Under the pieces are notes generated by a model. That model made no database searches, was not told the origin of the DNA, and worked only from the letters and a program-made list of their open reading frames with translations. From IMG/VR virus record IMGVR_UViG_3300044712_000982, positions 42,286 through 106,285 of that record: DNA of 64,000 bases; one strand, written 5' to 3'. The position numbers and the translations under genes were made by a program. Origin of the DNA: a virus. Numbering within the stretch: position 1 is the first letter of the stretch; each line of letters begins with the position of its first letter. Positions 24,486 to 64,000 of this stretch are shown piece after piece.

Positions 24486-25435
24486 TGTACGACGATGATC
24501 CGGCCGACGAAACCGCTCGGCCGACGGCGGCCCCACACGAGTGGTTCGGGCTCGTCAAGCGGGCACGCCTCGGCACCAGCCACCTCGGCCGTGAGCGCAA
24601 GCGGGCACTACTTGCCTTCGGGACCTATGCGGACACCGGCAAGGAAAACGGACAGGTGCCCGGCGAGCACGTTCACTGCGGCGTTGCCAGGCTGGCTACC
24701 GATCTGGAGATCGGGTTCTCGACAGCCCAGCGGTACCTCGCGTGGATGCGCAGTACCGGTCTGATCGAGCTGACGGCGAAAGGAAGCTACCGACTCGGGC
24801 TCGCTGACGAGTATCGGCTGACGCTCCCGACTCCGGAGCAGGCCGATGAGTTACGAATCTTGGATCCGAGCGCGTACAAGGAGCTTGTCGGCGGGAAGGT
24901 CCGGGCGAACAAGTCGAGGCACAAGCCGAAGGTTTCGGACCTCACCTTGACTGAGGTCCGAACCTGTGGACAAGCCGGTGACGTTGGCGACGATCCCGGC
25001 GAGTCTTTGGACCTCACACTGACTGAGGTCCAAAGTGCGTTTCGGACCTCGATTCCGGATGGTTCGGACCTCAGTCAGTGTGAGGCCCCACCGAACCTAG
25101 ATCTCACCGACCCTATGTATTTGACCGAACCTGAAATGGTTGATCTTGCAGCTAGGGTTACCCATACGCGCGCGCGAGGCTGTGGACGACGAGATCCTGA
25201 TCAAGGGGAAGTAAGCGGCACGGCTCCGCCGGCCGCCGCGATCAGACCTCCCCGACAGGGCGCGATACCCGAGCAACCGAAACCGTCGGAAGAACGCGAA
25301 TACACCGACGACAGGAAGATCACCAACGCAATCAAGGCCGGATACTGCCCAAGCTGCTACCTCGTCGGCGACTTCACCCCCGTCGCCAACGGCGCACGAA
25401 CCTGCCAGCACCACGCAAAGATAGGCGCGGCATGA
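24485..25435 (+). CDS. winged-helix replication initiator-like protein
   Basis: 316 residues from the ATG at 24485, coupled to the leader peptide. Residues about 40-120 form a winged-helix domain (ARLATDLEIGFSTAQRYLAWMRSTGLIELT), as in phage and plasmid replication initiators. The middle is low-complexity because the gene carries palindromic DNA repeats, read as DLTLTEV and similar. The C-terminus has a Cys-His motif (CPSCY..CQHH). By analogy with lambda O it should bind the internal iterons and open the origin. Confidence 0.7.
   Translation: MYDDDPADETARPTAAPHEWFGLVKRARLGTSHLGRERKRALLAFGTYADTGKENGQVPGEHVHCGVARLATDLEIGFSTAQRYLAWMRSTGLIELTAKGSYRLGLADEYRLTLPTPEQADELRILDPSAYKELVGGKVRANKSRHKPKVSDLTLTEVRTCGQAGDVGDDPGESLDLTLTEVQSAFRTSIPDGSDLSQCEAPPNLDLTDPMYLTEPEMVDLAARVTHTRARGCGRRDPDQGEVSGTAPPAAAIRPPRQGAIPEQPKPSEEREYTDDRKITNAIKAGYCPSCYLVGDFTPVANGARTCQHHAKIGAA
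24937..25088. repeat. three 23-bp palindromic iterons, candidate origin
   Basis: GGACCTCACCTTGACTGAGG-type units lie at 24937-24959, 25009-25031 and, inverted, 25066-25088, with a half-site GGACCTC at 25044-25050. Each is an imperfect palindrome around TGACTGAGGTCC. An AT-richer stretch follows at 25115-25155. They lie inside the initiator gene, the classic arrangement of lambdoid origins. Confidence 0.7.
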
Positions 25436-25641
25436 ACCGAGTGATCGAATTTCCAGGCCGCCGTCAGCCCCGTAGGGACCTCCCCGACCGCACAATCCCA
25501 GCAGTCGTCACCCTCATCGCCGAACATCTCGTCGACACCGTCGCCGCCGCACTGGAAGCCGAAGGAGTCGAATTCGAGACCCGCGAACGCGTCACCCGGA
25601 GACTCCTGCTGACCGAACACGAACGCGAGGCGCAGGCATGA
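25432..25641 (+). CDS. small hypothetical protein
   Basis: 69 residues, ATG overlapping the initiator stop. Helical (IPAVVTLIAEHLVDTVAAALEAEG) with a basic end; a similar helical pattern recurs in the third gene downstream. No family recognised. Confidence 0.55.
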   Translation: MNRVIEFPGRRQPRRDLPDRTIPAVVTLIAEHLVDTVAAALEAEGVEFETRERVTRRLLLTEHEREAQA

Positions 25642-25889
25642 CCAGTCGCAGCCAGTCCGGGAATCCGCCAACTGGTTCCGACCAGGAAAAACGTCGAGTT
25701 TCCGCAGGCTGCGACTGGCGACTGGATCCCAGGCTGCGGCAGATTACCCACGAAGAGCACGACTGGCCGGCGCCGGTCGGTAGAGGTTCAAGGGGAACTC
25801 CGGTACCCCTGATGCGTTTCGGCCAGCACGTGACAGCCACCGACGCCGAGAACTTCGGCACCCACGAACGCGAGAGGATGGCCGCATGA
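25638..25889 (+). CDS. small hypothetical protein
   Basis: 83 residues with ATGA overlaps at both ends, which supports it as real despite low complexity. Mostly polar and possibly disordered; no motif recognised. Confidence 0.5.
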   Translation: MTSRSQSGNPPTGSDQEKRRVSAGCDWRLDPRLRQITHEEHDWPAPVGRGSRGTPVPLMRFGQHVTATDAENFGTHERERMAA

Positions 25890-26128
25890 GTACTCCCGAC
25901 CTTCCCCGAGACGACCGACTCTTTGCACCCGAGCCGCAACGGGGACCACTCCGCGACTCCGTCCCGTCGCCGAAACGCAACGCCAGGCCGCTGCCGGCGC
26001 TGTTCGCCGAACTCCGCAACGTCCTCAGCGCAATGGACGCAGCCATGTCCGCCGAGGGCGCGACGCCAGAATTCCGCACCCGCGTCACGAACCGGCTCGT
26101 CTGGGGCCAGCCGGACGGGCCGACGTGA
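25886..26128 (+). CDS. small hypothetical protein
   Basis: 80 residues, ATGA overlap upstream. The C-terminal helix LPALFAELRNVLSAMDAAM and TRVTNRLVWG resemble the product of 25432-25641, which suggests divergent duplicates. Confidence 0.55.
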   Translation: MSTPDLPRDDRLFAPEPQRGPLRDSVPSPKRNARPLPALFAELRNVLSAMDAAMSAEGATPEFRTRVTNRLVWGQPDGPT

Positions 26129-26153
26129 TCGGCGCGGTTGGGATGATGGCGGC

Positions 26154-26378
26154 ATGAAAGACCACGTTCACCTACGCCGCGGCTCGGACGGCCTGTACTC
26201 GTTCCCCGAAGACGACGACCTCACCGAACGGTTCGCTGCGGCGATCCGCGCCCGGCGCCGACCCAAGATTCTGCACCCGACGCGCCGCGCCGCCGTGGCA
26301 TGGACCGTCAAGTGCGCGTGGCTGCGACTGCGAAACAAGATTGCGATCGCATACCTACAGATTCGGTACCGACGATGA
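26154..26378 (+). CDS. small basic protein
   Basis: 74 residues, very basic C-terminal half (RARRRPKILHPTRRAAVAW, ending YRR). Its stop overlaps the start of the XRE regulator. Possibly nucleic-acid binding by charge; no family. Confidence 0.5.
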   Translation: MKDHVHLRRGSDGLYSFPEDDDLTERFAAAIRARRRPKILHPTRRAAVAWTVKCAWLRLRNKIAIAYLQIRYRR

Positions 26379-27001
26379 AAGCCGGCGGAGACGTGACCTG
26401 CGATGATGTGCCGGTGGGGAACATTGGTGAATCAATCCGTCGTCGCCGCAACCTGATATCGATGTCACAGGCCGAGCTTGGCTGGCTCGCCGGGGTAGCT
26501 GGAGGAACAGTCAAGAAGGTGGAAGGTGGCAGGCAGCCAGAATCGGGAACGGCTGCGAACATCTCGCTAGCGCTCGGATGCATGCCGCCGACCAATCCGG
26601 CCAACATGGAGCTGACCGAGGTCTTCTCGGCAACCGCCACCCGGCTAGCTACGCGCGCCATCATCGCCCACGATGTCTCGGATGCGATAGCCGCGTGCTG
26701 GCGTGATGTTGTTGCGTGCCGTGGCGGCAGCGTGCTCGGCGAGTTGTGCAGCATCCTGGAGTCTCGGATGTCTCCGCCGGAGTTCGAGATGTTCGAACGT
26801 GAGGTTGCGGCTTTACGTGAGCACGAGCCAGCCGTTTCCGCCGAGCCGGCTGCTACACGCGACCGAGACTTCGCGGCGAACGCCACCGCAGCGATCGAGC
26901 AGGCTGCCGCAAGCGCTGGGCTGATCTCGGACCCGCGCGATGCTGCCGCGATGTGGCTTCAGGTCGCTGCGGCGTGGATCGATCTGGACCGTCGGCCGTG
27001 A
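26375..27001 (+). CDS. XRE-type HTH regulator
   Basis: 208 residues from the ATG at 26375, overlapping the previous stop. N-terminal XRE helix-turn-helix at about residues 16-70 (IGESIRRRRNLISMSQAELG, then VAGGTVKKVEGG). A helical C-terminal domain follows. It lies within the operon behind the initiator and may control early replication genes. Confidence 0.75.
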   Translation: MKAGGDVTCDDVPVGNIGESIRRRRNLISMSQAELGWLAGVAGGTVKKVEGGRQPESGTAANISLALGCMPPTNPANMELTEVFSATATRLATRAIIAHDVSDAIAACWRDVVACRGGSVLGELCSILESRMSPPEFEMFEREVAALREHEPAVSAEPAATRDRDFAANATAAIEQAAASAGLISDPRDAAAMWLQVAAAWIDLDRRP

Positions 27002-30367: not shown

Positions 30368-30618
30368 TCGATTCCCTCCAGTATCGCGTAGGCGACCGCG
30401 GCCACCTGGACTAGTTCTTCACGGAGCGCGTCCGGGTCGCAGTCGAGCGCGGCCCGTGCGACCTCCCCGCATTCCTCCGTCAATACGGCAACCTTCACCA
30501 TTAGCGGCACGTCGGGGCTGGAGCAGTCCCCGTGGCCGTGCGCATGCTGGCGTCCCCACAGCCGACGTTGCCGCGCACGCTCGGCGGCAACGTCGGCTGT
30601 AATGTCGTCGAATTTCAC
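30364..30618 (-). CDS. MazG-like NTP pyrophosphohydrolase
   Basis: 84 residues from the GTG at 30618, overlapping the methylase stop. Contains AERARQRRLWG..KVAVLTEECGEVARAAL..LREELVQVAAVAYAILEG, with the EExxE and ExxD-like helices of all-alpha MazG-type hydrolases. Could clean or adjust the nucleotide pool, or lower (p)ppGpp, during replication. Coupled on both sides. Confidence 0.7.
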   Translation of the reverse strand: MKFDDITADVAAERARQRRLWGRQHAHGHGDCSSPDVPLMVKVAVLTEECGEVARAALDCDPDALREELVQVAAVAYAILEGIE

Positions 30619-32588
30619 AGCTCGAACAGCCGCGGCTGCGACATCTCGTCGTCGAGACCGCGCAGCGTCTTGACTGCGGTCTCCCAGTAGGACGGCTTCA
30701 GTTCGATGCCGAGCGCGCGGCGTCCCCGCTTGACGGACACATACAGCTCGGATCCGATGCCGGCGAACGGCGTGAACACAGTCTCGCCCTGCCGTGAATA
30801 CATCCGGACGCACCGGTCGATGAAATCCAACTGGAGAGGACAGTTGTGAACGACGGCGCCCTCCGCGACGAAAGAGGCGTCGTCCTCCACCTGAAGGTCC
30901 CATACCTCTGCGAATCCTGAGGGCTGCGAACGGCGCACCTTCTTCCATGCTCCGTCGGTGTCTATCCACCCAGACTGGCGGTATCCCTCACTGTTCCGAA
31001 AGGCGAAGATCCAGTCCTGGCGGGCAACGACCGACCGACCGTCGATCACGTGCTTGCGTTCTGGTCGGCCAGCGTAAACGCTCGCCACCACGCCACGGGC
31101 ACGCTGTGCCACCATGGCCATGCCCAGCAGGAGCGCCCGAGATACCGACGATGCCGTCCACCGGTCGTAGCGTCCGACGTAGTGACCATCGGCCGACAGA
31201 TATCCGGCCAACAGTGCCTCCGCTTTCGGCTGTGGCAACGTCAGAAGTTCCCCCGGCACTCGCTTTCGATGGGCACCCTCGCCGCAACGGGCTAGCGTGG
31301 CGCGGAGGTCGGGTGACAGGTTCCTGAGGCTGACTTGGATGTCGGTGCCGGGGTCATGGGCCGCCCCTGCCTGGTGCCCCAGTCGCTCCGAAAGTTCGGC
31401 GAATTCACCCCGCGCGCACGACAGGATGAACTGACCCGTTCCGCCCCGTACGCCACTACGGCGATGAGCCGACGCTCGGTGTCCATCGCCCAGCCACCTA
31501 CCAATGACCCAACACTCATGCTCGCTGAGTGGTGACTCTTCTATCGGAGGCAACGGAAGGTTGAGGTACGAACCCAGCGTTTCAGATGCCGGAATCCACT
31601 CCGGCGCAGCAGACTGGGCTCGAGCCTTGGCATGAGGCCCAACACCCCGACGGGCCCACAGCATATGGTCGGCGGTGGTACGAAGATCTGCAACCCCCTG
31701 GGCGCATGTACGAATCACCGGCTCAATGCCGTTGCACCGCTTCGCGGTTACCGCACGCCATCGGCCATGGTGGGTCAATACCTCGCCCCCCACCGGTACG
31801 GTCTCGATCGGCACGTACCCGTCCCGGGTAAGCACCAGCGATCCTTCGGCCAAGCAGATGTGCCTCTCATCCTCCGGATCGCGGCCGGCACGGACGTTGA
31901 GCGTGTTCGTCTCCTTGATGTCGGTCCATACCGGAGAGATGTGCTCACCGCCGAGCGCGGCACCCTCGCCACGGTCGAACCAGATCGGCGACGCCCACTC
32001 GATCCACTCATCGTTGGTGAAGTCCCCACCCTTCGCGTCGTGCGGGATCTTCGCCGCGTTGTCGCCGGGCTTCTTGAAAATCAGAAGGTAGTCGGCGAGT
32101 GCCGGGCGGATACCCATCGAATCGCGGTTCTTGGTCTGAAATGCGAGCGAATACGAATGCGTGCGGATACTCTGCGCCTGCGGGTCTTTCCAGATCGTAG
32201 CCTCCCCATAGAAGATCCATCCCTCATCCTGGAATGCCCGGATCACGTCGCCGCGGAAGTCGGTCAGTCCGATGTGCCCGTGGGTGACCTTCGACGTCGT
32301 GAGCTGCTGAACGTGCACGCAGGCGTTGCGTCCCGGCTTCGTGATCCGCAGCTGCTCACGGATGATGAACCGGTAGTGGTCCAGGAATTCCGTACGGGTG
32401 GACGAGTTGCCCAGGTCGCGGACGCTCGGCGAATAGACGAAGAGCGAAGCGAACGGGGGGCTACACACTGACAGGTCGACCGACTCATCCGGAATCTCGG
32501 CCATGCGCTCGCACGAGTCGCCGAGCATGAGCCGCCACATGTCGCCGCATGCGTCGTCGGTCACGTATCCGTCGGTCTCGGTGGTCAC
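30615..32588 (-). CDS. DNA methyltransferase interrupted by an intein
   Basis: 657 residues. The N-extein carries the catalytic DLSVCSPPF (residues 38-46, motif IV of N4C/N6A enzymes). The C-extein carries TPFAGIG (606-612, motif I for S-adenosylmethionine). Between Ile244 and Cys583 lies a 338-residue intein. The C-extein resumes with CPLQLDFIDRC, the conserved motif X-like segment. After splicing the enzyme would be about 319 residues. It probably modifies element DNA against restriction. GTGA overlaps link it to the helicase upstream and the MazG-like gene downstream. Confidence 0.85.
   Translation of the reverse strand: MTTETDGYVTDDACGDMWRLMLGDSCERMAEIPDESVDLSVCSPPFASLFVYSPSVRDLGNSSTRTEFLDHYRFIIREQLRITKPGRNACVHVQQLTTSKVTHGHIGLTDFRGDVIRAFQDEGWIFYGEATIWKDPQAQSIRTHSYSLAFQTKNRDSMGIRPALADYLLIFKKPGDNAAKIPHDAKGGDFTNDEWIEWASPIWFDRGEGAALGGEHISPVWTDIKETNTLNVRAGRDPEDERHICLAEGSLVLTRDGYVPIETVPVGGEVLTHHGRWRAVTAKRCNGIEPVIRTCAQGVADLRTTADHMLWARRGVGPHAKARAQSAAPEWIPASETLGSYLNLPLPPIEESPLSEHECWVIGRWLGDGHRASAHRRSGVRGGTGQFILSCARGEFAELSERLGHQAGAAHDPGTDIQVSLRNLSPDLRATLARCGEGAHRKRVPGELLTLPQPKAEALLAGYLSADGHYVGRYDRWTASSVSRALLLGMAMVAQRARGVVASVYAGRPERKHVIDGRSVVARQDWIFAFRNSEGYRQSGWIDTDGAWKKVRRSQPSGFAEVWDLQVEDDASFVAEGAVVHNCPLQLDFIDRCVRMYSRQGETVFTPFAGIGSELYVSVKRGRRALGIELKPSYWETAVKTLRGLDDEMSQPRLFEL
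30843..31856 (-). mobile_element. LAGLIDADG intein in the methylase
   Basis: Intein residues 245-582 of the methylase. It starts with Cys245 (CLAEGSLVLTRDGYVPIE), has block B TTADHML, two LAGLIDADG-type helices (VIGRWLGDGH and LLAGYLSADGH), and ends VVHN before Cys583. All residues needed for splicing (Cys1, block-B His, terminal His-Asn, +1 Cys) are visible. The endonuclease should home into intein-less alleles. Confidence 0.9.
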
Positions 32589-37708: not shown

Positions 37709-37848
37709 CGCAACGCACCTGCGACGAGCGCGGCGCCGACCATCAGGCCGATGGCGGAGGGCCACCACGCGGCGACCCGCAGCCACAGCGCCGGCCGGGG
37801 CACGATGGCGATGACCTCTGCGGTCACGACGGGTACGAGTTGGCTCAC
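37705..37848 (-). CDS. 47-residue membrane protein
   Basis: GTG at 37848 overlaps the TraB/FtsK stop. One membrane segment (WPSAIGLMVGAALVAGAL) after a Trp-rich amphipathic stretch. Likely a small Spd-type accessory of the transfer operon. Confidence 0.6.
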   Translation of the reverse strand: MSQLVPVVTAEVIAIVPRPALWLRVAAWWPSAIGLMVGAALVAGALR

Positions 37849-39740
37849 GACGTCACCTGCCAGGGGGTTCCGCTGCCGCTTGGCTGCCTGATGTCTCCGG
37901 ACTCGCGCAGCTCGGCGAGTACGGCACGGAGTTGCGCAGGCCTGACCGGGCAGTCGGGCCGATCGAGGAGGGCATTCGCTGTCTGCGGTGAGATCCGTAG
38001 CCGTGCGCGAATCCACTCCTTTGTCGAGGTGGGTTTCTGCGGCGGCGGGCTCGGGTGGACCCCGAATGCGGAGAGCCGGTCGGCGACAGCGGCGGCTGCG
38101 CTTCCGAACGTTTCGCGAGGCGCGTCCGCTGCCGCTCGCCGCTGTTGCCCGCTGGTCGAGGGTTGCTCGGCTTGCTCGGGCTGGTCGACGATCCACCTGA
38201 TGGGGCGGCGGACGTGCCGCGCGGAGGCTGCGGCTTCGTCGAGGAACGGGACGCGTCCGAGCATGCCGATCCGTTCGGCTGCGCGGGAGTAGCCGCTTCC
38301 GGCGGTCTTCAGTTTCTTGCCGCCGATCTCGATCTCGATGGGGATGGAGAATGGGTCGCCGATGAAGTCGTCGGGGAGCACGGTGGTGCCACTGCCGCGG
38401 TTGGACAGTCGGAGGATGAGGGCGTTTCCGGCGACGGCGGCGTCACGGATCCGGATTGATCCGCCGAGTGATTTCATTTGCGGGAGTTGGGTGGCGAGGA
38501 TGACGGAGACGCCGGTTTTGCGGCAGATCGCCATGATCTCTTCGAGCATCTCGACGATCTGACGGTCTTCGCTGGACATCGTGAGCACCAGGTGGCATTC
38601 GTCGATGATGACGGCGAGTTGCCTGATCCCGAGCGCAATGATTTTCGGGTCCGCCTGGTCGTAGGCGTCGATACCTTCAGCCGCCAGCCGGGACGATCGT
38701 TCCATAACCTCGGCGTGGAGCCTGCGGATTAGGTCTTTCGTCGCCGTGACCCCGTTGTGGTATTCGCCGGCAGTGTCCCGCCATTTCGGCAGTGACTGGC
38801 CGTTTTGCGGGTCGCAGACGACGACCATCACACCGGCGTGGAGGAGGTTGTCGATGATGACGCCGAGTGCGCGGCTCTTCCCGGCGTTCGACGAGCCGAC
38901 GATGAGCCCGTTGAGGGTTCCAGATCCTTCCTGCTGGTGGATCCAGGTGCACGGGGTGCCGTCGGCGTAGGTGATGATCTGGAAGCGTCCGTCGCGGTAG
39001 GTCGGGCCGGGGTAGCGAACGGGCAGTTGGATGTATGAGCGCTCGACGATGACGAGCTGGAGTTTCGCGGCGCGTCCGGTGCGTCGCCAACCAACTGAGC
39101 CTTCGGGGAGGTCGAGGCAGGTTTCGACGGCGGAGCCGGTCTTGACGACCTCCCCGATTTTCGTTCCTGGCAGGAGCCGGATTGTGGCTTCGATGACACC
39201 GGCGCGGACGGTCTTCGCCACGGTGAGCAGCGTATTTTTGCAGACCCCATGGCCGATGACTTCGGTGCGCCACCTCTGCACCCATTCGTCCGTCCGGTCG
39301 ACCTCCGGCTCGGGGTCGGGCTCGACCACGTCACGTAGGTGACGCCACCACGGCCAGCCCAGGAGCGGGGTGACGATCGCCAGGATCGGAATTGAGGGGC
39401 CGTGGGTGAGCGGATCGGCCAGCAGCGCCCACAGTCCGAGCGTCCCGGTGATCACGGCTCGGTAGCAGCGAATCCATCCCGAGTGGGTGCGCCACCCGGC
39501 GGCGATGAGCACGGCGACCGCCACGGTGCCCCACTCCCACCAGCCGGACAGGTCGAGCCACCCGGAGGCGACGGCGGCGAGCCACGCTGTGGCGGCCCAG
39601 TACGCCGGCAGCATGCGCCGCCACGTGTGCTTGAGGATCCAGCCAGCCGCGATCAGCACCGCGGCGCCTGCCGTCGCGGATCCGGTGACTGCCGCCCCGG
39701 CTGCCCGCTGTTTGATTCCTGCCGTCGCCATTTTGTTCAC
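37845..39740 (-). CDS. TraB/FtsK-type conjugative DNA translocase
   Basis: 631 residues. Four hydrophobic segments in the first ~135 residues. RecA-like motor: Walker A GSSNAGKS (282-289), Walker B LAVIIDE (375-381), sensor ATQLP (416-420). After a Gln/Ser/Ala linker the C-terminus (about 575-631) reads as a winged helix (TKEWIRARLRISPQTANALL), comparable to the sequence-recognition domain of Streptomyces TraB. Proteins of this design move double-stranded plasmid DNA between mycelial cells. The main gene of the transfer region. Confidence 0.9.
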   Translation of the reverse strand: MNKMATAGIKQRAAGAAVTGSATAGAAVLIAAGWILKHTWRRMLPAYWAATAWLAAVASGWLDLSGWWEWGTVAVAVLIAAGWRTHSGWIRCYRAVITGTLGLWALLADPLTHGPSIPILAIVTPLLGWPWWRHLRDVVEPDPEPEVDRTDEWVQRWRTEVIGHGVCKNTLLTVAKTVRAGVIEATIRLLPGTKIGEVVKTGSAVETCLDLPEGSVGWRRTGRAAKLQLVIVERSYIQLPVRYPGPTYRDGRFQIITYADGTPCTWIHQQEGSGTLNGLIVGSSNAGKSRALGVIIDNLLHAGVMVVVCDPQNGQSLPKWRDTAGEYHNGVTATKDLIRRLHAEVMERSSRLAAEGIDAYDQADPKIIALGIRQLAVIIDECHLVLTMSSEDRQIVEMLEEIMAICRKTGVSVILATQLPQMKSLGGSIRIRDAAVAGNALILRLSNRGSGTTVLPDDFIGDPFSIPIEIEIGGKKLKTAGSGYSRAAERIGMLGRVPFLDEAAASARHVRRPIRWIVDQPEQAEQPSTSGQQRRAAADAPRETFGSAAAAVADRLSAFGVHPSPPPQKPTSTKEWIRARLRISPQTANALLDRPDCPVRPAQLRAVLAELRESGDIRQPSGSGTPWQVTS

Positions 39741-40205: not shown

Positions 40206-40804
40206 GCTCCACTACCTTCGTTGATCTTGGGTGGTACGGATTCCAGTTCCGGGATGGGTCTCAGCTGCTGCGGACTGCCGCTCCGCGCGGGCCTCTTCGT
40301 CCTTCGGGCCGGCGACGGACGGCGCGTCGGCTCGGGCATCGTGTCTGGGTCTTCGTCGGTGTCGGTGTGGTGGATGTCGGTGTGTTGCTTCGACGCGTCG
40401 TCGGCGTTGCGTTTGAGCTGGTATGGACGGGATCGCCAGTCGCACAGGTCGCAGTTGCCGTACCAGTGCTTTGCCTGCCGGTCGTATTCGATGGCGACGG
40501 GGCCTCGCGTGCGGCGTTCGCGGTAGATGGCGCGGCGCTCCTCTCGGCGTTGGCGGCGCTGCTCCCACCGTTCGGGGCGGCGTTCGCGGGCGGCGTCAGA
40601 GGCGTCCTCGATCAGGTCGGCGAAGTACTTGCCGATCGCCGACCTGGTGCGCTTCGGCTCCCTGCCGGCAGCCCGGTCGACGCGCTCGCGCTTTTCGCGT
40701 TCCTGCCTGCGCGGCGATGTCTTCCCGCGGGCTGCGGCGACGACGTCCTCGAAGATCAGGGCGATGACCTTCAGTGTGATGAGTACGAGTACGACGTCGA
40801 CCAT
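40202..40804 (-). CDS. membrane protein with Arg-rich linker and Cys-His motif
   Basis: 200 residues. N-terminal membrane segment (MVDVVLVLITLKVIALIF), a very Arg/Glu-rich middle, then NCDLCDWRS..KQHTDIHHTD, which looks like a C2H2-type zinc site, and a Pro-rich tail. Possibly a membrane-bound nucleic-acid-binding spread factor. Confidence 0.65.
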   Translation of the reverse strand: MVDVVLVLITLKVIALIFEDVVAAARGKTSPRRQEREKRERVDRAAGREPKRTRSAIGKYFADLIEDASDAARERRPERWEQRRQRREERRAIYRERRTRGPVAIEYDRQAKHWYGNCDLCDWRSRPYQLKRNADDASKQHTDIHHTDTDEDPDTMPEPTRRPSPARRTKRPARSGSPQQLRPIPELESVPPKINEGSGA

Positions 40805-54848: not shown

Positions 54849-55046
54849 CTATCTTTTCGGCGACGCGCCACTAATCAGGTTGACGTCTTTGCGCACGCAC
54901 CGCATACTCGCATTTGCACGAACACTTACCCGATGAGTCGTTGTGACCAGGTGGCAGCCCGAGCAGACGCCGCGTTTGCGGCCGTCGTGCGCTGGGCAAA
55001 ATCTGGTCGGCTCCGCCAACGTGATTCCGGCGGCCTTCGAAGCCAA
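54849..55046 (-). CDS. possible small zinc-binding protein
   Basis: 65 residues from a TTG at 55046. FCPAHDGRKRGVCSGCHLVT and a later CVRKD give a plausible zinc site. No good ribosome site and antisense frames are also open. The remaining 55047-55150 holds nothing recognised. Confidence 0.4.
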   Translation of the reverse strand: MASKAAGITLAEPTRFCPAHDGRKRGVCSGCHLVTTTHRVSVRANASMRCVRKDVNLISGASPKR

Positions 55047-55150: not shown

Positions 55151-55224
55151 ATGGGCGTAGCTCAATCAGGTAGAGCGCTGGTCTCCAAAACCAGTCGTTG
55201 CGGGTTCAATTCCTGCCGCCCATG
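55151..55224 (+). tRNA. tRNA-Trp(CCA)
   Basis: Acceptor ATGGGCG/CGCCCAT, D-arm GCTCAATCAGGTAGAGC, anticodon loop CTCCAAA, T-loop TTCAATT, discriminator G. First tRNA of the array. Confidence 0.92.
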
Positions 55225-55285
55225 CGCAACAGCCCCAGCATGCTGGCGGCGCACGAACGTTGAGAACTCCACAGCGGATGGCATT

Positions 55286-55358
55286 CGGGAATGACCGGCA
55301 CGGTGACCGGGCCTGATTTGGGATCAGGACGCAGCGCGTTCGACTCGCGTATTCCCGA
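55286..55358 (+). tRNA. tRNA-Pro(TGG)
   Basis: Acceptor CGGGAAT/ATTCCCG, D-stem CCGG/CCGG, anticodon loop TTTGGGA, T-loop TTCGACT, discriminator A. Confidence 0.88.
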
Positions 55359-55362
55359 CGAT

Positions 55363-55435
55363 GGGGTTGTAGCTCAGTTGGTAGAGCGTCGGCTCGGCAG
55401 ACCGAAGGCCGAGGGTTCGAGACCCTCCTTCTCCA
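55363..55435 (+). tRNA. tRNA-Ala(GGC), weak stems
   Basis: The acceptor GGGGTTG/CTTCTCC has the alanine identity pair G3-T70 but two T-T mismatches. The anticodon stem TCGGC/ACCGA ends in a C-A mismatch and position 33 is C instead of T. Loop gives GGC. May be decaying or need unusual processing. Confidence 0.65.
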
Positions 55436-55443
55436 CGCATCAT

Positions 55444-55519
55444 GCCTCTCAAGCTCAGCCAGGTAGCAGCGCGCGGTTGAAGCCCGCGAGGATTCCGGGT
55501 TCGACCCCCGGGGGAGGCA
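55444..55519 (+). tRNA. tRNA-Phe(GAA)
   Basis: Acceptor GCCTCTC/GGGAGGC, anticodon stem CGCGG/CCGCG with loop TTGAAGC, T-loop TTCGACC, discriminator A. Confidence 0.9.
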
Positions 55520-55527
55520 CGTTTCAT

Positions 55528-55601
55528 GGGCCGTCGGAGCAGATGGAACGCTCACCTCGTTCTCAGCGAGGAGAACACCGGTTCGAGCCCGGTACGGCCT
55601 G
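55528..55601 (+). tRNA. tRNA-Glu(CTC)
   Basis: Acceptor GGGCCGT/ACGGCCT (G1-T72), anticodon stem CCTCG/CGAGG with loop TTCTCAG, T-loop TTCGAGC, discriminator G followed by encoded CCA. Confidence 0.88.
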
Positions 55602-55605
55602 CCAC

Positions 55606-55678
55606 GCGGTCGTGGTGAACTCGGCGGACACATCAGTCTTCCAAACTGAGAAAGCGGGTTCGATGCCCGCCGGCCGCT
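55606..55678 (+). tRNA. tRNA-Gly(TCC)
   Basis: Acceptor GCGGTCG/CGGCCGC, anticodon stem TCAGT/ACTGA with loop CTTCCAA, T-loop TTCGATG, discriminator T. Confidence 0.9.
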
Positions 55679-55683
55679 CTCGT

Positions 55684-55757
55684 TCCGGGGTACGGCGCTG
55701 GCGTCCGTGACCGCACTTTGAATGCGGAACCCGTAGGTTCGATTCCTGCACCCGGAG
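55684..55757 (+). tRNA. tRNA-Gln(TTG)
   Basis: Acceptor TCCGGG/CCCGGA, anticodon stem CCGCA/TGCGG with loop CTTTGAA, T-loop TTCGATT, discriminator G followed by encoded CCA (55758-55760). D-stem short. Confidence 0.85.
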
Positions 55758-55761
55758 CCAT

Positions 55762-55835
55762 GCCGTGGTGGCCCAACCGGGAGAGGCGCTCCGTTCAAAG
55801 CGGAGAAGTTGGGGGTTCGAATCCCTCGCACGGCA
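55762..55835 (+). tRNA. tRNA-Leu(CAA) with short variable loop
   Basis: Acceptor GCCGTGG/GCACGGC (G7-G66 mismatch), D-arm GCCCAACCGGGAGAGGC, anticodon stem CTCCG/CGGAG with loop TTCAAAG, T-loop TTCGAAT, discriminator A. The variable region is only about five bases, whereas bacterial leucine tRNAs have a long arm. Confidence 0.78.
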
Positions 55836-55845
55836 CTCGTTCGAT

Positions 55846-55917
55846 GCGGCTGTAGCACAACGGTCAGTGCGTCGCCTTGCCATGGCGAAAACCGGGGTTC
55901 GACTCCCCGTAGCCGCT
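55846..55917 (+). tRNA. tRNA-Gly(GCC)
   Basis: Acceptor GCGGCTG/TAGCCGC, anticodon stem TCGCC/GGCGA with loop TTGCCAT, T-loop TTCGACT, discriminator T then encoded CCA (55918-55920). Confidence 0.92.
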
Positions 55918-55952
55918 CCACGTCCACCCTCAATGGCCAGGAGGTGTTTCCG

Positions 55953-56396
55953 GTGGACTCGGTACTTGTTCTCAACGCCGACCTCGGGCCGCTGCACCGG
56001 GTCAGCCTGCGCCACGCGATCCGGATGCTCTGCCGACAGGTGGCGGAGGTCCACGAATCGGAGCCCGACATACGCATCGGCGTGTTTCCGATGCCGCGGG
56101 TGGTGCGGCTCGTCGCGTACGTGGTGACCCGCTGGCGGTACAGCGCCGGCCCGGCGTGGTCGCGGACAGGTGTGCTCGCCCGTGACGGGCGGCGTTGCGG
56201 CTACTGTGGCAGTCCGGCAACCACGGTCGATCACATCCTCCCGCGGTCGCGGGGTGGCCGGAACGCCTGGAAGAACACGGTCGCCGCGTGTGGGCCGTGT
56301 AATCAGCGCAAGGGCGACAGGACCCCCATCGAAGCGCGGATGCCGCTGCGGGCCACCCCAGCGGCGCCGACCTGGGCCACGCTCGCCCAGCGCTAA
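55953..56396 (+). CDS. free-standing HNH endonuclease in the tRNA array
   Basis: 147 residues from the GTG at 55953 with AGGAGG upstream. N-terminal helper domain (SVLVLNADLGPLHRVSLRHA, typical of McrA-like HNH proteins). The HNH core is CGYCGSPATTVDHILPRSRG, then WKNTVAACGPCNQRKGDRTP. Two CxxC pairs bind zinc and His in VDH is catalytic. It interrupts the run of tRNA genes and is probably a homing endonuclease that spreads the array or itself. Confidence 0.88.
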   Translation: MDSVLVLNADLGPLHRVSLRHAIRMLCRQVAEVHESEPDIRIGVFPMPRVVRLVAYVVTRWRYSAGPAWSRTGVLARDGRRCGYCGSPATTVDHILPRSRGGRNAWKNTVAACGPCNQRKGDRTPIEARMPLRATPAAPTWATLAQR

Positions 56397-56461
56397 CGCT
56401 CAGAACCTCACGAGGATGGCCGGTGACGGCATGGGGTGACAGCCGGGAGAGACCGGCCCAT

Positions 56462-56533
56462 TCCCGGGTCGTCTAGCTGGTAGGACGCCGCGCTCTGAAC
56501 GCGGAAGGCTGGGTTCGAATCCTGGCCCGGGAG
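56462..56533 (+). tRNA. tRNA-Gln(CTG)
   Basis: Acceptor TCCCGGG/CCCGGGA, D-arm GTCTAGCTGGTAGGAC, anticodon stem CCGCG/CGCGG with loop CTCTGAA, T-loop TTCGAAT, discriminator G. Confidence 0.92.
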
Positions 56534-56546
56534 CGTTACCTCACAT

Positions 56547-56622
56547 GCCGGTGTAGCTCACGTTGGTTCCGAGCACCGCTCTTGTAAAGCGGAGAACGCT
56601 AGTTCGATTCTAGTCACCGGCT
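56547..56622 (+). tRNA. tRNA-Thr(TGT)
   Basis: Acceptor GCCGGTG/CACCGGC, anticodon stem CCGCT/AGCGG with loop CTTGTAA, T-loop TTCGATT, discriminator T. D-loop is long. Confidence 0.9.
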
Positions 56623-56626
56623 CTTC

Positions 56627-56700
56627 GGGCTCTTAGCTCATTTTGGTAGAGCACCTGTCTTGCAAACAGGAGGTGGCCGGTTCGAAACCGGCAGGGTCCA
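56627..56700 (+). tRNA. tRNA-Ala(TGC)
   Basis: Acceptor GGGCTCT/AGGGTCC with the G3-T70 identity pair, anticodon stem CCTGT/ACAGG with loop CTTGCAA, T-loop TTCGAAA, discriminator A. Confidence 0.93.
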
Positions 56701-56706
56701 CGTCAT

Positions 56707-56781
56707 GCCCGGGTAGCCCAAATGGTAGGAGGCGACTGGCTTAGAACCAGTTCAGTGCACGTTCGAATCGTGTTCCGGGTA
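56707..56781 (+). tRNA. tRNA-Leu(TAG) with short variable loop
   Basis: Acceptor GCCCGGG/TCCGGGT, D-stem GCC/GGC, anticodon stem ACTGG/CCAGT with loop CTTAGAA, variable loop TCAGT, T-loop TTCGAAT, discriminator A. Reads CTA codons. Class I shape instead of the long-arm leucine form. Confidence 0.82.
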
Positions 56782-56785
56782 CTTT

Positions 56786-56858
56786 GCTGGCGTAGCTCAG
56801 TGGTTAGAGCGCCGGATTGTCAATCCGGAGGCCGCGGGTTCGAGTCCCGCCGTCGGCG
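56786..56858 (+). tRNA. tRNA-Asp(GTC)
   Basis: Acceptor GCTGGCG/CGTCGGC, anticodon stem CCGGA/TCCGG with loop TTGTCAA, T-loop TTCGAGT, discriminator G. Confidence 0.93.
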
Positions 56859-56862
56859 CGTT

Positions 56863-56948
56863 GGAGAGTTGGCCGAGTTGGTTTATGGCGCCGCACTGCT
56901 AATGCGGTTCGGGTAACACCGTCGTGGGTTCGAATCCCGCACTCTCCG
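56863..56948 (+). tRNA. tRNA-Ser(GCT)
   Basis: Acceptor GGAGAGT/ACTCTCC, anticodon stem CCGCA/TGCGG with loop CTGCTAA, long variable arm TTCGGGTAACACCGTC, T-loop TTCGAAT, discriminator G then CCA. Confidence 0.93.
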
Positions 56949-56952
56949 CCAT

Positions 56953-57026
56953 GCCGTCGTGGCCCGCGTGGTAAGGGCGTCTCGCCGATAACGAGAAGGT
57001 AGGGAGTTCGACTCTCCCCGACGGTA
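56953..57026 (+). tRNA. tRNA-Ile(GAT)
   Basis: Acceptor GCCGTCG/CGACGGT, anticodon stem TCTCG/CGAGA with loop CCGATAA (C at position 33), T-loop TTCGACT, discriminator A. Confidence 0.88.
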
Positions 57027-57030
57027 CTTT

Positions 57031-57103
57031 GCCCCCGTAGCTCAATGGATGGAGCAGCGGCCTACGAAGCCGTGGTATGCGAGTTCGAATCTCGCCGGGG
57101 GTG
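57031..57103 (+). tRNA. tRNA-Arg(ACG)
   Basis: Acceptor GCCCCCG/CGGGGGT, anticodon stem GCGGC/GCCGT with loop CTACGAA, T-loop TTCGAAT, discriminator G. Confidence 0.92.
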
Positions 57104-57108
57104 CGTTT

Positions 57109-57183
57109 CGGGATGTAGCTCAGCTTGGTCAGAGCACGCGGCTGGGGGCCGCGGGGCCGCCGGTTCGAATCCGACCATCCCGA
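57109..57183 (+). tRNA. tRNA-Pro(GGG)
   Basis: Acceptor CGGGATG/CATCCCG, anticodon stem CGCGG/CCGCG with loop CTGGGGG, T-loop TTCGAAT, discriminator A then CCA. One C-A mismatch in the T-stem. Confidence 0.9.
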
Positions 57184-57187
57184 CCAG

Positions 57188-57261
57188 CGGGTACTAGCTC
57201 AACTTGGTGGAGCGCGCGGTCCGGGGCCGCGAGGATGGGCGTTCGAATCGCCCGTACCCGA
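57188..57261 (+). tRNA. tRNA-Pro(CGG)
   Basis: Acceptor CGGGTAC/GTACCCG, anticodon stem CGCGG/CCGCG with loop TCCGGGG, T-loop TTCGAAT, discriminator A. Confidence 0.9.
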
Positions 57262-57265
57262 CTGT

Positions 57266-57346
57266 GGAGGGTGGCGCCATGGTGGCAAACCGGTCTTGAA
57301 AACCGTGCCGGGGTAACGCCCGAGGGTTCGATTCCTTCACCCTCCT
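57266..57346 (+). tRNA. tRNA-Ser(TGA)
   Basis: Acceptor GGAGGGT/ACCCTCC, anticodon loop CTTGAAA, long variable arm GCCGGGGTAACGCCCG, T-loop TTCGATT, discriminator T then CCA. Confidence 0.9.
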
Positions 57347-57350
57347 CCAC

Positions 57351-57421
57351 GCGCCGCTAGCTGAGTGGTTTAGCACCGGACTCTTAATCCGGGGAGGAAG
57401 GTTCGATCCCTTCGCGGCGTA
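57351..57421 (+). tRNA. tRNA-Lys(CTT)
   Basis: Acceptor GCGCCGC/GCGGCGT, anticodon stem CCGGA/TCCGG with loop CTCTTAA, T-loop TTCGATC, discriminator A. Confidence 0.9.
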
Positions 57422-57426
57422 CGTTT

Positions 57427-57499
57427 CCCTCGGCAGCTCGACGGAACGAGCAACGGACTTCTAAGCCGCTGGTTGCCGGTTCGATTCCGGCCCGAGGGA
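57427..57499 (+). tRNA. tRNA-Arg(TCT)
   Basis: Acceptor CCCTCGG/CCGAGGG, anticodon stem ACGGA/GCCGC with two mismatches, loop CTTCTAA, T-loop TTCGATT, discriminator A. Confidence 0.85.
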
Positions 57500-57505
57500 C
57501 TCTCT

Positions 57506-57577
57506 CTCCCGCTAGCTCAACGGACAGAGCGCCACCCTCCTAAGGTGGATGTCCACGTTCGAATCGTGGGCGGGAGA
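57506..57577 (+). tRNA. tRNA-Arg(CCT)
   Basis: Acceptor CTCCCGC/GCGGGAG, anticodon stem CCACC/GGTGG with loop CTCCTAA, T-loop TTCGAAT, discriminator A. Confidence 0.92.
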
Positions 57578-57582
57578 CTTAT

Positions 57583-57654
57583 GCGCCGTTAGCTCAGAGG
57601 TAGAGCTGCCGCCTTTTAAGCGGAGTGTCGCAGGTTCGAGCCCTGCACGGCGTA
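57583..57654 (+). tRNA. tRNA-Lys(TTT)
   Basis: Acceptor GCGCCGT/ACGGCGT, anticodon stem CCGC/GCGG with loop CTTTTAA, T-loop TTCGAGC, discriminator A. Confidence 0.9.
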
Positions 57655-57655
57655 C

Positions 57656-57726
57656 TGCGGGTGTGGTGGAGTGGAACCACGCTGGGCTCATAACCCGGAG
57701 ACGCCGTTCGAATCGGACACCCGCCA
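57656..57726 (+). tRNA. tRNA-Met(CAT), initiator-like
   Basis: Acceptor TGCGGGT/ACCCGCC with a T1-C72 mismatch. Anticodon stem CTGGG/CCCGG with three consecutive G-C pairs next to the loop CTCATAA. Discriminator A then CCA. The 1-72 mismatch plus the GGG/CCC stem are initiator-tRNA features. The outer T-stem pairs are weak. Confidence 0.78.
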
Positions 57727-57729
57727 CCA

Positions 57730-57801
57730 CGCGCGTTCGACTATGGGTTAGGTTGCGAAGCTTTCACCTTCGCGGAACGGGTTCGAGTCCCGTACGCGCG
57801 A
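57730..57801 (+). tRNA. tRNA-Glu(TTC)
   Basis: Acceptor CGCGCGT/ACGCGCG, anticodon stem CGAAG/CTTCG with loop CTTTCAC, T-loop TTCGAGT, discriminator A. D-arm is irregular. Confidence 0.85.
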
Positions 57802-57805
57802 CTAT

Positions 57806-57880
57806 TCCGGTGTCGCCCAATTCGGTAGGGCAACGCACTGTTAATGCGTACAGGTGCAGGTTCGAGTCCTGCCACCGGAG
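57806..57880 (+). tRNA. tRNA-Asn(GTT)
   Basis: Acceptor TCCGGTG/CACCGGA, anticodon stem ACGCA/TGCGT with loop CTGTTAA, T-loop TTCGAGT, discriminator G. Confidence 0.93.
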
Positions 57881-57884
57881 CTTC

Positions 57885-57959
57885 GCGTCGGAGTCCATCT
57901 GGTTGGTGGAGACCGTCTTATAAACGGTGTGTGGCTGGGTTCAATTCCCGCGCGGCGCA
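57885..57959 (+). tRNA. tRNA-Ile(TAT)
   Basis: Acceptor GCGTCGG/GCGGCGC, anticodon stem ACCGT/ACGGT with loop CTTATAA, T-loop TTCAATT, discriminator A. Reads ATA directly. Most bacteria instead use a CAT anticodon with lysidine. Confidence 0.85.
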
Positions 57960-57964
57960 CCTAT

Positions 57965-58037
57965 GCCCGTGTAGCTCAGTTGGTGGAGCGGCTGCCTTAC
58001 AAGCAGCGGGATGCAGGTTCGAATCCTGTCGCGGGTA
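57965..58037 (+). tRNA. tRNA-Val(TAC)
   Basis: Acceptor GCCCGTG/CGCGGGT, anticodon stem GCTGC/GCAGC with loop CTTACAA, T-loop TTCGAAT, discriminator A. Confidence 0.93.
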
Positions 58038-58039
58038 CT

Positions 58040-58110
58040 GTGACTGTAGCTCAATGGTAGAGCGCTGGATTGTGGCTCCAGCGATGCCGGTTCAATTCCG
58101 GTCGGTCACC
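58040..58110 (+). tRNA. tRNA-His(GTG)
   Basis: Acceptor GTGACTG/CGGTCAC, anticodon stem CTGGA/TCCAG with loop TTGTGGC, T-loop TTCAATT, discriminator C (typical of His) then CCA. No encoded G at -1. Confidence 0.9.
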
Positions 58111-58114
58111 CCAA

Positions 58115-58196
58115 GTCCGTCGTGAGCATTGGTCAGCTCGGCAGTCTGTAAAACTGTCGCCTTGCGGCTGATCCGGTTCGAATCCGGGGGCGGGCA
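58115..58196 (+). tRNA. tRNA-Tyr(GTA)
   Basis: Acceptor GTCCGTC/GGCGGGC, anticodon stem GCAGT/ACTGT with loop CTGTAAA, long variable arm, T-loop TTCGAAT, discriminator A then CCA. Confidence 0.9.
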
Positions 58197-58200
58197 CCAA

Positions 58201-58272
58201 GTCTTCGTAGCGCAGCGGAAGCGCGCGGCCCTCCGAAGGCCGAGGTCGCTGGTTCGAATCCAGTCGGGGACG
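58201..58272 (+). tRNA. tRNA-Arg(CCG)
   Basis: Acceptor GTCTTCG/CGGGGAC, anticodon stem CGGCC/GGCCG with loop CTCCGAA, T-loop TTCGAAT, discriminator G. Confidence 0.9.
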
Positions 58273-58273
58273 C

Positions 58274-58504
58274 TCACGGCTCGGTGTCGTTGCGGGTGCA
58301 GCGGCCGGTCTGCAAAACCGGATTCTCTCGGGTTCGACTCCCGGCCGAGCCTCTATGCCGTCTGCTGTGGATTTTGCGCTGGCGGGTCGGCTGCCCAGTC
58401 GCCATCGCCCGTGCGACCAGCGCGGCCCGGTCGGCCTCCGGGTCTCCGGTCCAGTCGTCGTACCGGCTTGAGAGTGGGCTTGTATCGCGTTCGCTGGTGC
58501 TCAC
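58274..58504 (-). CDS. small hypothetical protein, antisense over tRNA-Cys
   Basis: 76 residues from the GTG at 58504, which overlaps the upstream stop. The first ~45 residues (MSTSERDTSPLSSRYDDWTG, DPEADRAALVARAMATG) look genuine. The last ~25 are the antisense of tRNA-Cys, suggesting that the array boundary truncated or extended the gene. Confidence 0.45.
   Translation of the reverse strand: MSTSERDTSPLSSRYDDWTGDPEADRAALVARAMATGQPTRQRKIHSRRHRGSAGSRTRENPVLQTGRCTRNDTEP
58278..58352 (+). tRNA. tRNA-Cys(GCA)
   Basis: Acceptor GGCTCGG/CCGAGCC, anticodon stem CCGGT/ACCGG with loop CTGCAAA, T-loop TTCGACT, discriminator T as expected for Cys. Last tRNA of the array; a leftward ORF runs antisense through it. 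Confidence 0.92.
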
Positions 58505-59661: not shown

Positions 59662-60138
59662 ATGTCGACCCTGATCGTTACGCTCGGCCCGCCCGGGTGC
59701 GGCAAAACCTACGACGTCGACGCGTGGATGCGCGTCGAGCCGGGCAGGGTGCGGATCTCCCGCGACGGACTACGGGTGGCTGTCGGATTCGGCGGCAACC
59801 ACGACGACAACCCGCGCTGGATGGAGGACGCGATTACGATGGCGCAGCGCGCCGCCGTTCGGGAGTGGCTACTCGACGGACTTGACGTGGCCATCGACGA
59901 CACGTGCCAGTCGCAGCCGACGATGGACAACTGGATGCTGATCGCGAAGCGGTGCCGGGCGCGGCTGGTCGTGTGGGACTACCGGGCGGTGCCGCTGACG
60001 CTGTGCATTACGCGGGACCGCGAGCGCGGCGCCCGTGGTGGGAGGCTTGTCGGTGAGGATGCGGTTCGGTTGGTTGCCGAACGTTGCGCCGCCGTGACCA
60101 TCCCGGCTGGCGCGGACTCGCTGCGGCTGCTGGCCTAG
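59662..60138 (+). CDS. polynucleotide-kinase-like P-loop protein
   Basis: 158 residues, GGAGGTG upstream of the ATG. Walker A GPPGCGKT (9-16), then ISRDGLR, VAIDDTC and a lid region RDRERGARGGRLVGEDAVRL, the order seen in the 5'-kinase domain of T4 Pnk. No phosphatase domain and no RNA ligase nearby. It could phosphorylate nucleic-acid 5' ends, for example in tRNA repair, given the tRNA array 1.3 kb away. General AAA/zeta-like kinases remain possible. Confidence 0.7.
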   Translation: MSTLIVTLGPPGCGKTYDVDAWMRVEPGRVRISRDGLRVAVGFGGNHDDNPRWMEDAITMAQRAAVREWLLDGLDVAIDDTCQSQPTMDNWMLIAKRCRARLVVWDYRAVPLTLCITRDRERGARGGRLVGEDAVRLVAERCAAVTIPAGADSLRLLA

Positions 60139-63873: not shown

Positions 63874-64000
63874 GCTCGGTGCTCGGTGCTCGGTGCTCGG
63901 TGCTCGGTGCTCGGTGCTCGGTGCTCGGTGCTCGGTGCTCGGTGCTCGGTGCTCGGTGCTCGGTGCTCGGTGCTCGGTGCTCGGTGCTCGGTGCTCGGTG
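63874..64000. repeat. tandem array of the 7-mer GCTCGGT
   Basis: Eighteen perfect contiguous copies plus one base, running off the window end, so the total is unknown. It lies upstream of the leftward accessory operon. No inverted symmetry. Confidence 0.9.

Follow-up and report, generated by a model that had tools for sequence, protein, structure and literature searches.

A 33-gene tRNA array for all 20 amino acids, with an embedded HNH endonuclease gene, in a tailed phage probably infecting Micromonosporaceae

The DNA analysed here, hereafter the window (64 kb in total), corresponds to bases 42286-106285 of the 106,285-base virus record IMGVR_UViG_3300044712_000982. It carries, at positions 55151-58352, an array of 33 tRNA genes, all on the plus strand, with 33 different anticodons for 20 amino acids, and a gene coding for an HNH endonuclease lies inside this array. 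Genes were called with ARAGORN at its default setting and with the Rfam tRNA covariance model, and coordinates refer to the window unless another locus is named. The features are listed below with their strand; a tRNA gene is supported by both ARAGORN and the covariance model unless its line gives other evidence.

55151-55224, +: tRNA-Trp(CCA), first array gene (ARAGORN; covariance model, 66.2 bits)
55286-55358, +: tRNA-Pro(TGG) (ARAGORN; ortholog stem analysis)
55363-55435, +: tRNA-Ala(GGC), C33 in the anticodon loop
55444-55519, +: tRNA-Phe(GAA) (ARAGORN; 20 orthologs, stem cells 99% paired)
55528-55604, +: tRNA-Glu(CTC), CCA encoded, G73
55606-55678, +: tRNA-Gly(TCC)
55684-55760, +: tRNA-Gln(TTG), CCA encoded
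55762-55835, +: tRNA-Leu(CAA), short variable arm (class I), A73
55846-55920, +: tRNA-Gly(GCC), CCA encoded, last before the HNH gene
55953-56396, +: HNH endonuclease, 147 aa (Pfam HNH_5 and HNH)
56462-56533, +: tRNA-Gln(CTG), first after the HNH gene
56547-56622, +: tRNA-Thr(TGT)
56627-56700, +: tRNA-Ala(TGC)
56707-56781, +: tRNA-Leu(TAG), short variable arm (class I), A73
56786-56858, +: tRNA-Asp(GTC) (ARAGORN; covariance model, 75.2 bits)
56863-56951, +: tRNA-Ser(GCT), long variable arm, CCA encoded
56953-57026, +: tRNA-Ile(GAT), C33
57031-57103, +: tRNA-Arg(ACG)
57109-57186, +: tRNA-Pro(GGG), CCA encoded
57188-57261, +: tRNA-Pro(CGG), C33 (ARAGORN, RNA folding; 20 orthologs, stem cells 100% paired)
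57266-57349, +: tRNA-Ser(TGA), long variable arm, CCA encoded, unusual U73 (ARAGORN)
57351-57421, +: tRNA-Lys(CTT)
57427-57499, +: tRNA-Arg(TCT)
57506-57577, +: tRNA-Arg(CCT)
57583-57654, +: tRNA-Lys(TTT)
57657-57725, +: tRNA-Met(CAT), 69 nt, weak T stem, C73
57730-57801, +: tRNA-Glu(TTC)
57806-57880, +: tRNA-Asn(GTT)
57885-57959, +: tRNA-Ile(TAT), anticodon not in the proxy host (ARAGORN, collinear orthologs)
57965-58037, +: tRNA-Val(TAC)
58040-58113, +: tRNA-His(GTG), C73, CCA encoded
58115-58199, +: tRNA-Tyr(GTA), long variable arm, CCA encoded (ARAGORN)
58201-58272, +: tRNA-Arg(CCG)
58278-58352, +: tRNA-Cys(GCA), last gene, U73 (covariance model, RNA folding)
54880-54908, +: promoter-like site upstream of the array, the only one and weak (1 found vs 0.4 expected)
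59662-60138, +: polynucleotide-kinase-like P-loop protein, 1.3 kb downstream of the array

The original prediction, made from the letters alone, had listed 33 tRNA genes for all 20 amino acids within 3.2 kb of one strand, and its isotypes, multiplicities and coordinates were exactly right. It had overlooked the HNH gene, and the DNA around the array belongs to a virus record, not to a bacterial element. ARAGORN reports 32 of the genes (55151-58273); the 33rd, Cys(GCA), is overlooked at the default setting, is matched by the covariance model at 58278-58351 with 38.0 bits and proved, on manual reading, to have an acceptor stem of 7 bp, with U73 falling at 58352. Covariance scoring, proposed in the original prediction as a check, places 27 of the 33 genes above the Rfam tRNA gathering score, and the genes below it are ARAGORN calls for which relatives have collinear orthologs. 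Most cloverleafs were recovered by RNA folding alone, the poorest being those of Pro(GGG) and Ile(TAT). The distance from the discriminator base to the start of the next gene is mostly about 4 nt, and CCA is encoded by 8 of the 33 genes. With 33 genes in 3.2 kb, the array has the density that characterises array units and phage tRNA clusters (at least 2 tRNA genes per kb, dozens clustered); its short spacers, conserved order and stem covariation place it far beyond chance. Rfam matches to tRNA-Sec, YrlA and plastid families are cross-matches to tRNA folds, nearly all under the family gathering scores, and a tRNA-Ala called by ARAGORN at 40518 has no covariance match and is probably spurious.

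The array was compared with its orthologs in 29 other arrays (718 pairs, about 70% identical, with slot medians of 62-77%). Among 14541 stem cells, 95.6% are paired, against 72.8% after shuffling, a percentage inflated by the fact that ARAGORN reports pairing genes only, which leaves the pattern of varied pairs unaffected; double changes in stems are compensatory in 4070 cases and broken in 200. Discriminator bases follow the isotype (G in Asn, Asp, Gln, Trp and Ser, U in Gly, Thr and Cys, C in His, and A in 72 of 73 tRNA-Leu), as they do in Micromonospora humi, taken as proxy host; the exceptions in the window include Ser(TGA) with U73, Glu(CTC) with G73, two Arg with G73 and Met with C73. 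Amino acids served by a single slot are kept more often (122/128) than redundant ones (411/480; Fisher p=0.0012, in statistics that ignore phylogeny and with some genes missed by ARAGORN). Because the stems covary and the isotype-specific discriminator bases are kept, the array genes are, judging from these comparative patterns, selected as functional tRNAs.

The HNH gene is located between Gly(GCC) and Gln(CTG). An embedded HNH gene is a feature of tRNA array units; in Mycobacterium arrays, HNH is the commonest coding gene. The catalytic and zinc residues expected of a homing endonuclease are intact: C82, C85, D93, H94, N108, C113, C116 and N117 are invariant across 43 sequences. The protein is predicted to consist of an N-terminal domain with a b-b-a-b-b pattern (residues 1-53) followed by the HNH domain (about 71-120). 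According to sequence models and a fold search, the HNH domains of IscB and compact Cas9 are the ones that it most resembles; the best curated model is the HNH part of IscB (50 bits, with a full-length cut-off of 175). The predicted strand-helix pattern of the N-terminus is that of the PLMP domain (PMC9581776); hhalign against a single PLMP sequence gave a probability of 3.4% (P=0.013, over 31 residues only), and a structure search of the protein returned no clear PLMP match. Of 9 other phages that were checked, 5 have an HNH relative within or next to tRNA genes, as does plasmid pTY66, and the gene also occurs alone, without an array, in many Actinoplanes and Micromonospora genomes. The protein is probably a homing-type nuclease that would aid the spread of the cassette or its exchange between phages. 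In the Micromonospora humi array, the HNH gene (L057:6001-6441) has a premature stop codon.

Another 29 arrays, carried by phages or by Micromonosporaceae genomes, have the same tRNA order with the HNH gene at the same point, and HNH relatives at this slot are 60-78% identical. The chromosomal carriers include Micromonospora, Asanoa, Phytohabitans, Plantactinospora and other genomes, and the arrays are also found on many viral contigs. Between the window and seven relatives, 26-32 genes are in common order, and none of 2000 shuffles did as well; in one array (L014), 32 of 33 genes follow the window order, again matched by 0 of 2000 shuffles. Chromosomes of Catellatospora and Dactylosporangium (L022-L042) carry short collinear arrays of about 4-10 tRNAs, and there, too, the HNH gene occupies this slot. 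Genes flanking the array are mostly unrelated between loci, except within genera. Gene content was compared with nine array-bearing records, a tenth having no usable gene calls: the window's phage shares 3-16 reciprocal best hits with each, at a median identity of 32-50%, and the HNH proteins, where paired, are 65-78% identical. Of 25 records, only 1 contains relatives of the portal and of a second head-region protein, and a search of viral contigs with the portal found no relative. A DNA-level search of phages and plasmids returned short tRNA matches and no full array. The array and its HNH gene thus behave as a cassette, since order and HNH are shared while flanks and phage genes are mostly unrelated; for the same reason, descent of the array as part of one phage lineage with common flanks was rejected. 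The best-matching array varies from tRNA to tRNA, with up to 96% identity against a slot median of about 71%, which suggests piecewise exchange between arrays. Recent capture from the host was also rejected, as the array tRNAs are no closer to proxy-host tRNAs.

The record is that of a tailed phage, identified by terminase, portal, head-protein, tape-measure and tail families, and it also encodes a replicative helicase, a sliding clamp, an SSB and a DnaQ-like exonuclease. The nearest HNH protein in the tree belongs to a Dactylosporangium metagenome-assembled genome (support 99/96). The host of this soil-type virus is probably a member of the Micromonosporaceae, because close HNH relatives and syntenic arrays are found in genomes of this family.

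Some of the array tRNAs depart from the usual pattern. The variable arm is short in 64 of 75 array tRNA-Leu genes, and the long arm is kept in Ser (61/61) and Tyr (21/24); none of the five proxy-host tRNA-Leu genes (83-87 nt) is short. Short tRNA-Leu genes also occur in pTY66, PegLeg, Myxococcus phage Mx1, Rctr197k and FlowerPower, and not in the part of XacN1 that was read, so that the trait extends beyond the Micromonosporaceae array family; a literature search found no published account of it in phages. In addition, C33 replaces the near-universal U33 in 64 of 907 array tRNAs, mainly Val(GAC), Ala(GGC) and Thr(GGT), against 0 of 46 host tRNAs, and the anticodon stems are the part most diverged from the proxy host (0.54 vs 0.30 overall).

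As for decoding, UUA, a codon nearly avoided by the phage, is the only one left unread if U34 reads whole four-codon boxes. In the Val, Ser, Leu and Thr boxes, the window has lost the G34 tRNA and kept the U34 tRNA. Relatives with pairs of G34 and C34 tRNAs mostly cannot read A-ending codons, and hence not every array is complete.

Our preferred explanation, held with moderate confidence, is that this laterally moving cassette of tRNA array and HNH gene, in a tailed phage of a probably Micromonosporaceae host, backs up the host tRNA pool. The array would be transcribed as a single long precursor, as its spacers of about 4 nt suggest, from which host RNases would excise the tRNAs; a host enzyme would add CCA where it is not encoded, and host synthetases could then charge the tRNAs, as the conserved discriminator bases imply. 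The phage's own decoding set could thereby keep translation going if host tRNAs run short, are cleaved or match poorly, and the HNH nuclease in its fixed slot may help the cassette to spread or to be exchanged between phages. The original prediction had proposed a replacement of the host tRNA supply, for example after host tRNA cleavage. The replacement or back-up part agrees with the covarying stems, the discriminator bases and the retention of single slots; the cleavage trigger found no such agreement. By analogy with recent work on other phages, in which phage tRNAs are proposed to replace host tRNAs destroyed by defence nucleases (PMC10264068, PMC11555353), host tRNA cleavage would nevertheless be a plausible trigger.

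Several points weigh against this back-up explanation: (i) a search of 15 genomes from the family of the probable host yielded no protein of the PrrC/RloC type, although PIN/VapC-type proteins are present in 6 of 6 genomes; (ii) anticodon loops show no excess of change (0.21 per site vs 0.30 for the whole gene, window vs Micromonospora humi), an excess being the signature proposed for mycobacteriophages (PMC10264068); (iii) strict wobble leaves 9 codons unread, amounting to 14.3% of phage codons, so that full independence needs broad U34 reading; (iv) slow evolution of the HNH gene, instead of transfer, could account for part of its high identity; (v) the chromosomal copies look vertically inherited within genera; and (vi) the host is assigned from relatives.

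A possible though rather unlikely alternative is that the tRNAs mainly serve codons used more by the phage than by its GC-rich host, with no link to defence. Indeed, in a comparison with the one proxy host over 40 genes, GC content at third codon positions is 80% in the phage and 95% in the host, A-ending codons are several-fold commoner in the phage (GAA 19.3 vs 6.3 and AAA 7.0 vs 0.7 per 1000), and, apart from UUA, almost all A-ending codons have their U34 tRNA in the array, which also includes Ile(TAT), an anticodon not present in the proxy host. However, a check of anticodons against codon use, also proposed in the original prediction, gave no overall enrichment of exactly matched codons for phage-over-host use (p=0.37), and tRNAs without such bias (Trp, Asp, His, Cys, Met and others) are kept. 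Codon compensation may contribute alongside the back-up role. A bolder and less likely extension of the latter is that the array and its IshB-like HNH form a self-spreading module giving unrelated phages nearly host-independent decoding, with tRNAs rebuilt (short tRNA-Leu, C33) to escape host defences that target tRNAs.

It is more doubtful still that the cassette is purely selfish, the HNH nuclease spreading itself and its flanks, with the tRNAs as cargo whose conserved sequences make good homing ground. The constant HNH slot amid mostly unrelated surroundings, the best match that shifts between tRNAs and the HNH relatives near tRNA genes in other phages and pTY66 are all in keeping with homing, but functionless cargo would not keep stems and discriminator bases across all isotypes, many chromosomal HNH relatives adjoin no tRNAs, and no cleavage site is known. 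Very improbable is tRNA-dependent lysogeny (PMC10865867), in which the array would replace a host tRNA broken by prophage integration: relatives lie inside long bacterial contigs and the record encodes a Gp3-like recombination directionality factor, but one tRNA would suffice, and the record, which may be incomplete, yielded no integrase of the resolvase or tyrosine type. A relic made of decaying tRNA genes captured from the host has the smallest chance of all; the array is shorter in some of the chromosomal copies, and a premature stop interrupts the HNH gene of Micromonospora humi, yet the window copy is intact, its structure is under strong selection and its tRNAs resemble those of the host no more than they resemble one another. 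For the window copy, this reading is refuted by the covariation and discriminator results.

Other genes of the record were also considered. The polynucleotide-kinase-like protein downstream of the array is a possible RNA-repair partner; no ligase was recognised among the genes scanned, and a role as conserved array partner was rejected, as no relatives were found in viral contigs. A TROVE (Ro60-like) RNA-binding protein (L010:9046-10650), with up to 59% identity in array-bearing relatives, is a possible partner in RNA handling. A DpdA-like protein (L011:5415-6967; record 25415-26967) adjoins a transporter of the Vut_1 family (YhhQ-like), a pair that makes 7-deazaguanine DNA modification probable. 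A DNA methyltransferase (30615-32588) is apparently split by an intein (Hint and LAGLIDADG matches). An FtsK/TraB-like ATPase (37845-39740) is nearest to actinobacterial plasmid TraB, far under its cut-off; the presence of this ATPase and of a ParB-like protein is a hint of a phage-plasmid. At the window end (63874-64000), 18 perfect copies of GCTCGGT reflect either the point where the assembly stops or a genuine repeat that ends the phage DNA.

The significance of these results lies in the fact that a complete phage decoding set is an old, ordered unit and not a chance pile of tRNAs. This unit appears to travel whole among phages that belong to one bacterial family and are otherwise unrelated, and shortened forms of it survive in bacterial chromosomes. 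The arrays form a natural series with slots gained and lost, for which codon compensation and tRNA replacement predict different outcomes, and through the class I tRNA-Leu genes the requirements of LeuRS and of host tRNases can be probed cleanly by biochemistry.

Earlier work had already described arrays that cover all 20 isotypes, contain HNH genes and have unrelated flanks (PMC5966550, PMC6409571, PMC12803027), and 8 virus clusters with 20 isotypes have been counted (PMC6409571). Completeness for 20 amino acids is not new, given the precedent of Streptomyces phage FlowerPower (MH155868), whose actinophage DNA encodes all of them in about 2 kb and includes a 75-nt tRNA-Leu; it differs in having 21 tRNAs, one per amino acid except two for Ser, in an unrelated order and with no HNH gene inside. 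The Mycobacterium array units (PMC5966550; Mycobacterium avium linear plasmids, PMC12803027) share with the window the close packing of dozens of tRNA genes, which serve up to 20 amino acids, an embedded HNH gene, carriage by mobile elements and flanks unrelated between types, whereas the window family is carried by Micromonosporaceae phages and genomes. The order in pTY66 is at chance relative to the window (longest common subsequence 9, shuffled mean 9.9) and its HNH protein is 45% identical; the Mycobacterium-type order was compared through pTY66 and PegLeg only, not types G1-G5, and order defines types, not the general kind. Cluster M mycobacteriophage PegLeg likewise has a dense tRNA set, HNH genes between tRNAs and a 75-nt tRNA-Leu, but several HNH genes, a tmRNA, an RtcB-like ligase and fewer isotypes. 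An order shared with pTY66, PegLeg or FlowerPower was rejected as no better than chance. The role proposed here resembles that of the anti-tRNase phage tRNAs (PMC10264068, PMC11555353), from which the window differs in its anticodon loops, not changed in excess relative to the proxy host. A literature search found no paper on tRNA arrays in Micromonospora. In summary, what is new is a Micromonosporaceae array family with a conserved order and a fixed HNH slot, together with the evidence for its movement between otherwise unrelated phages.

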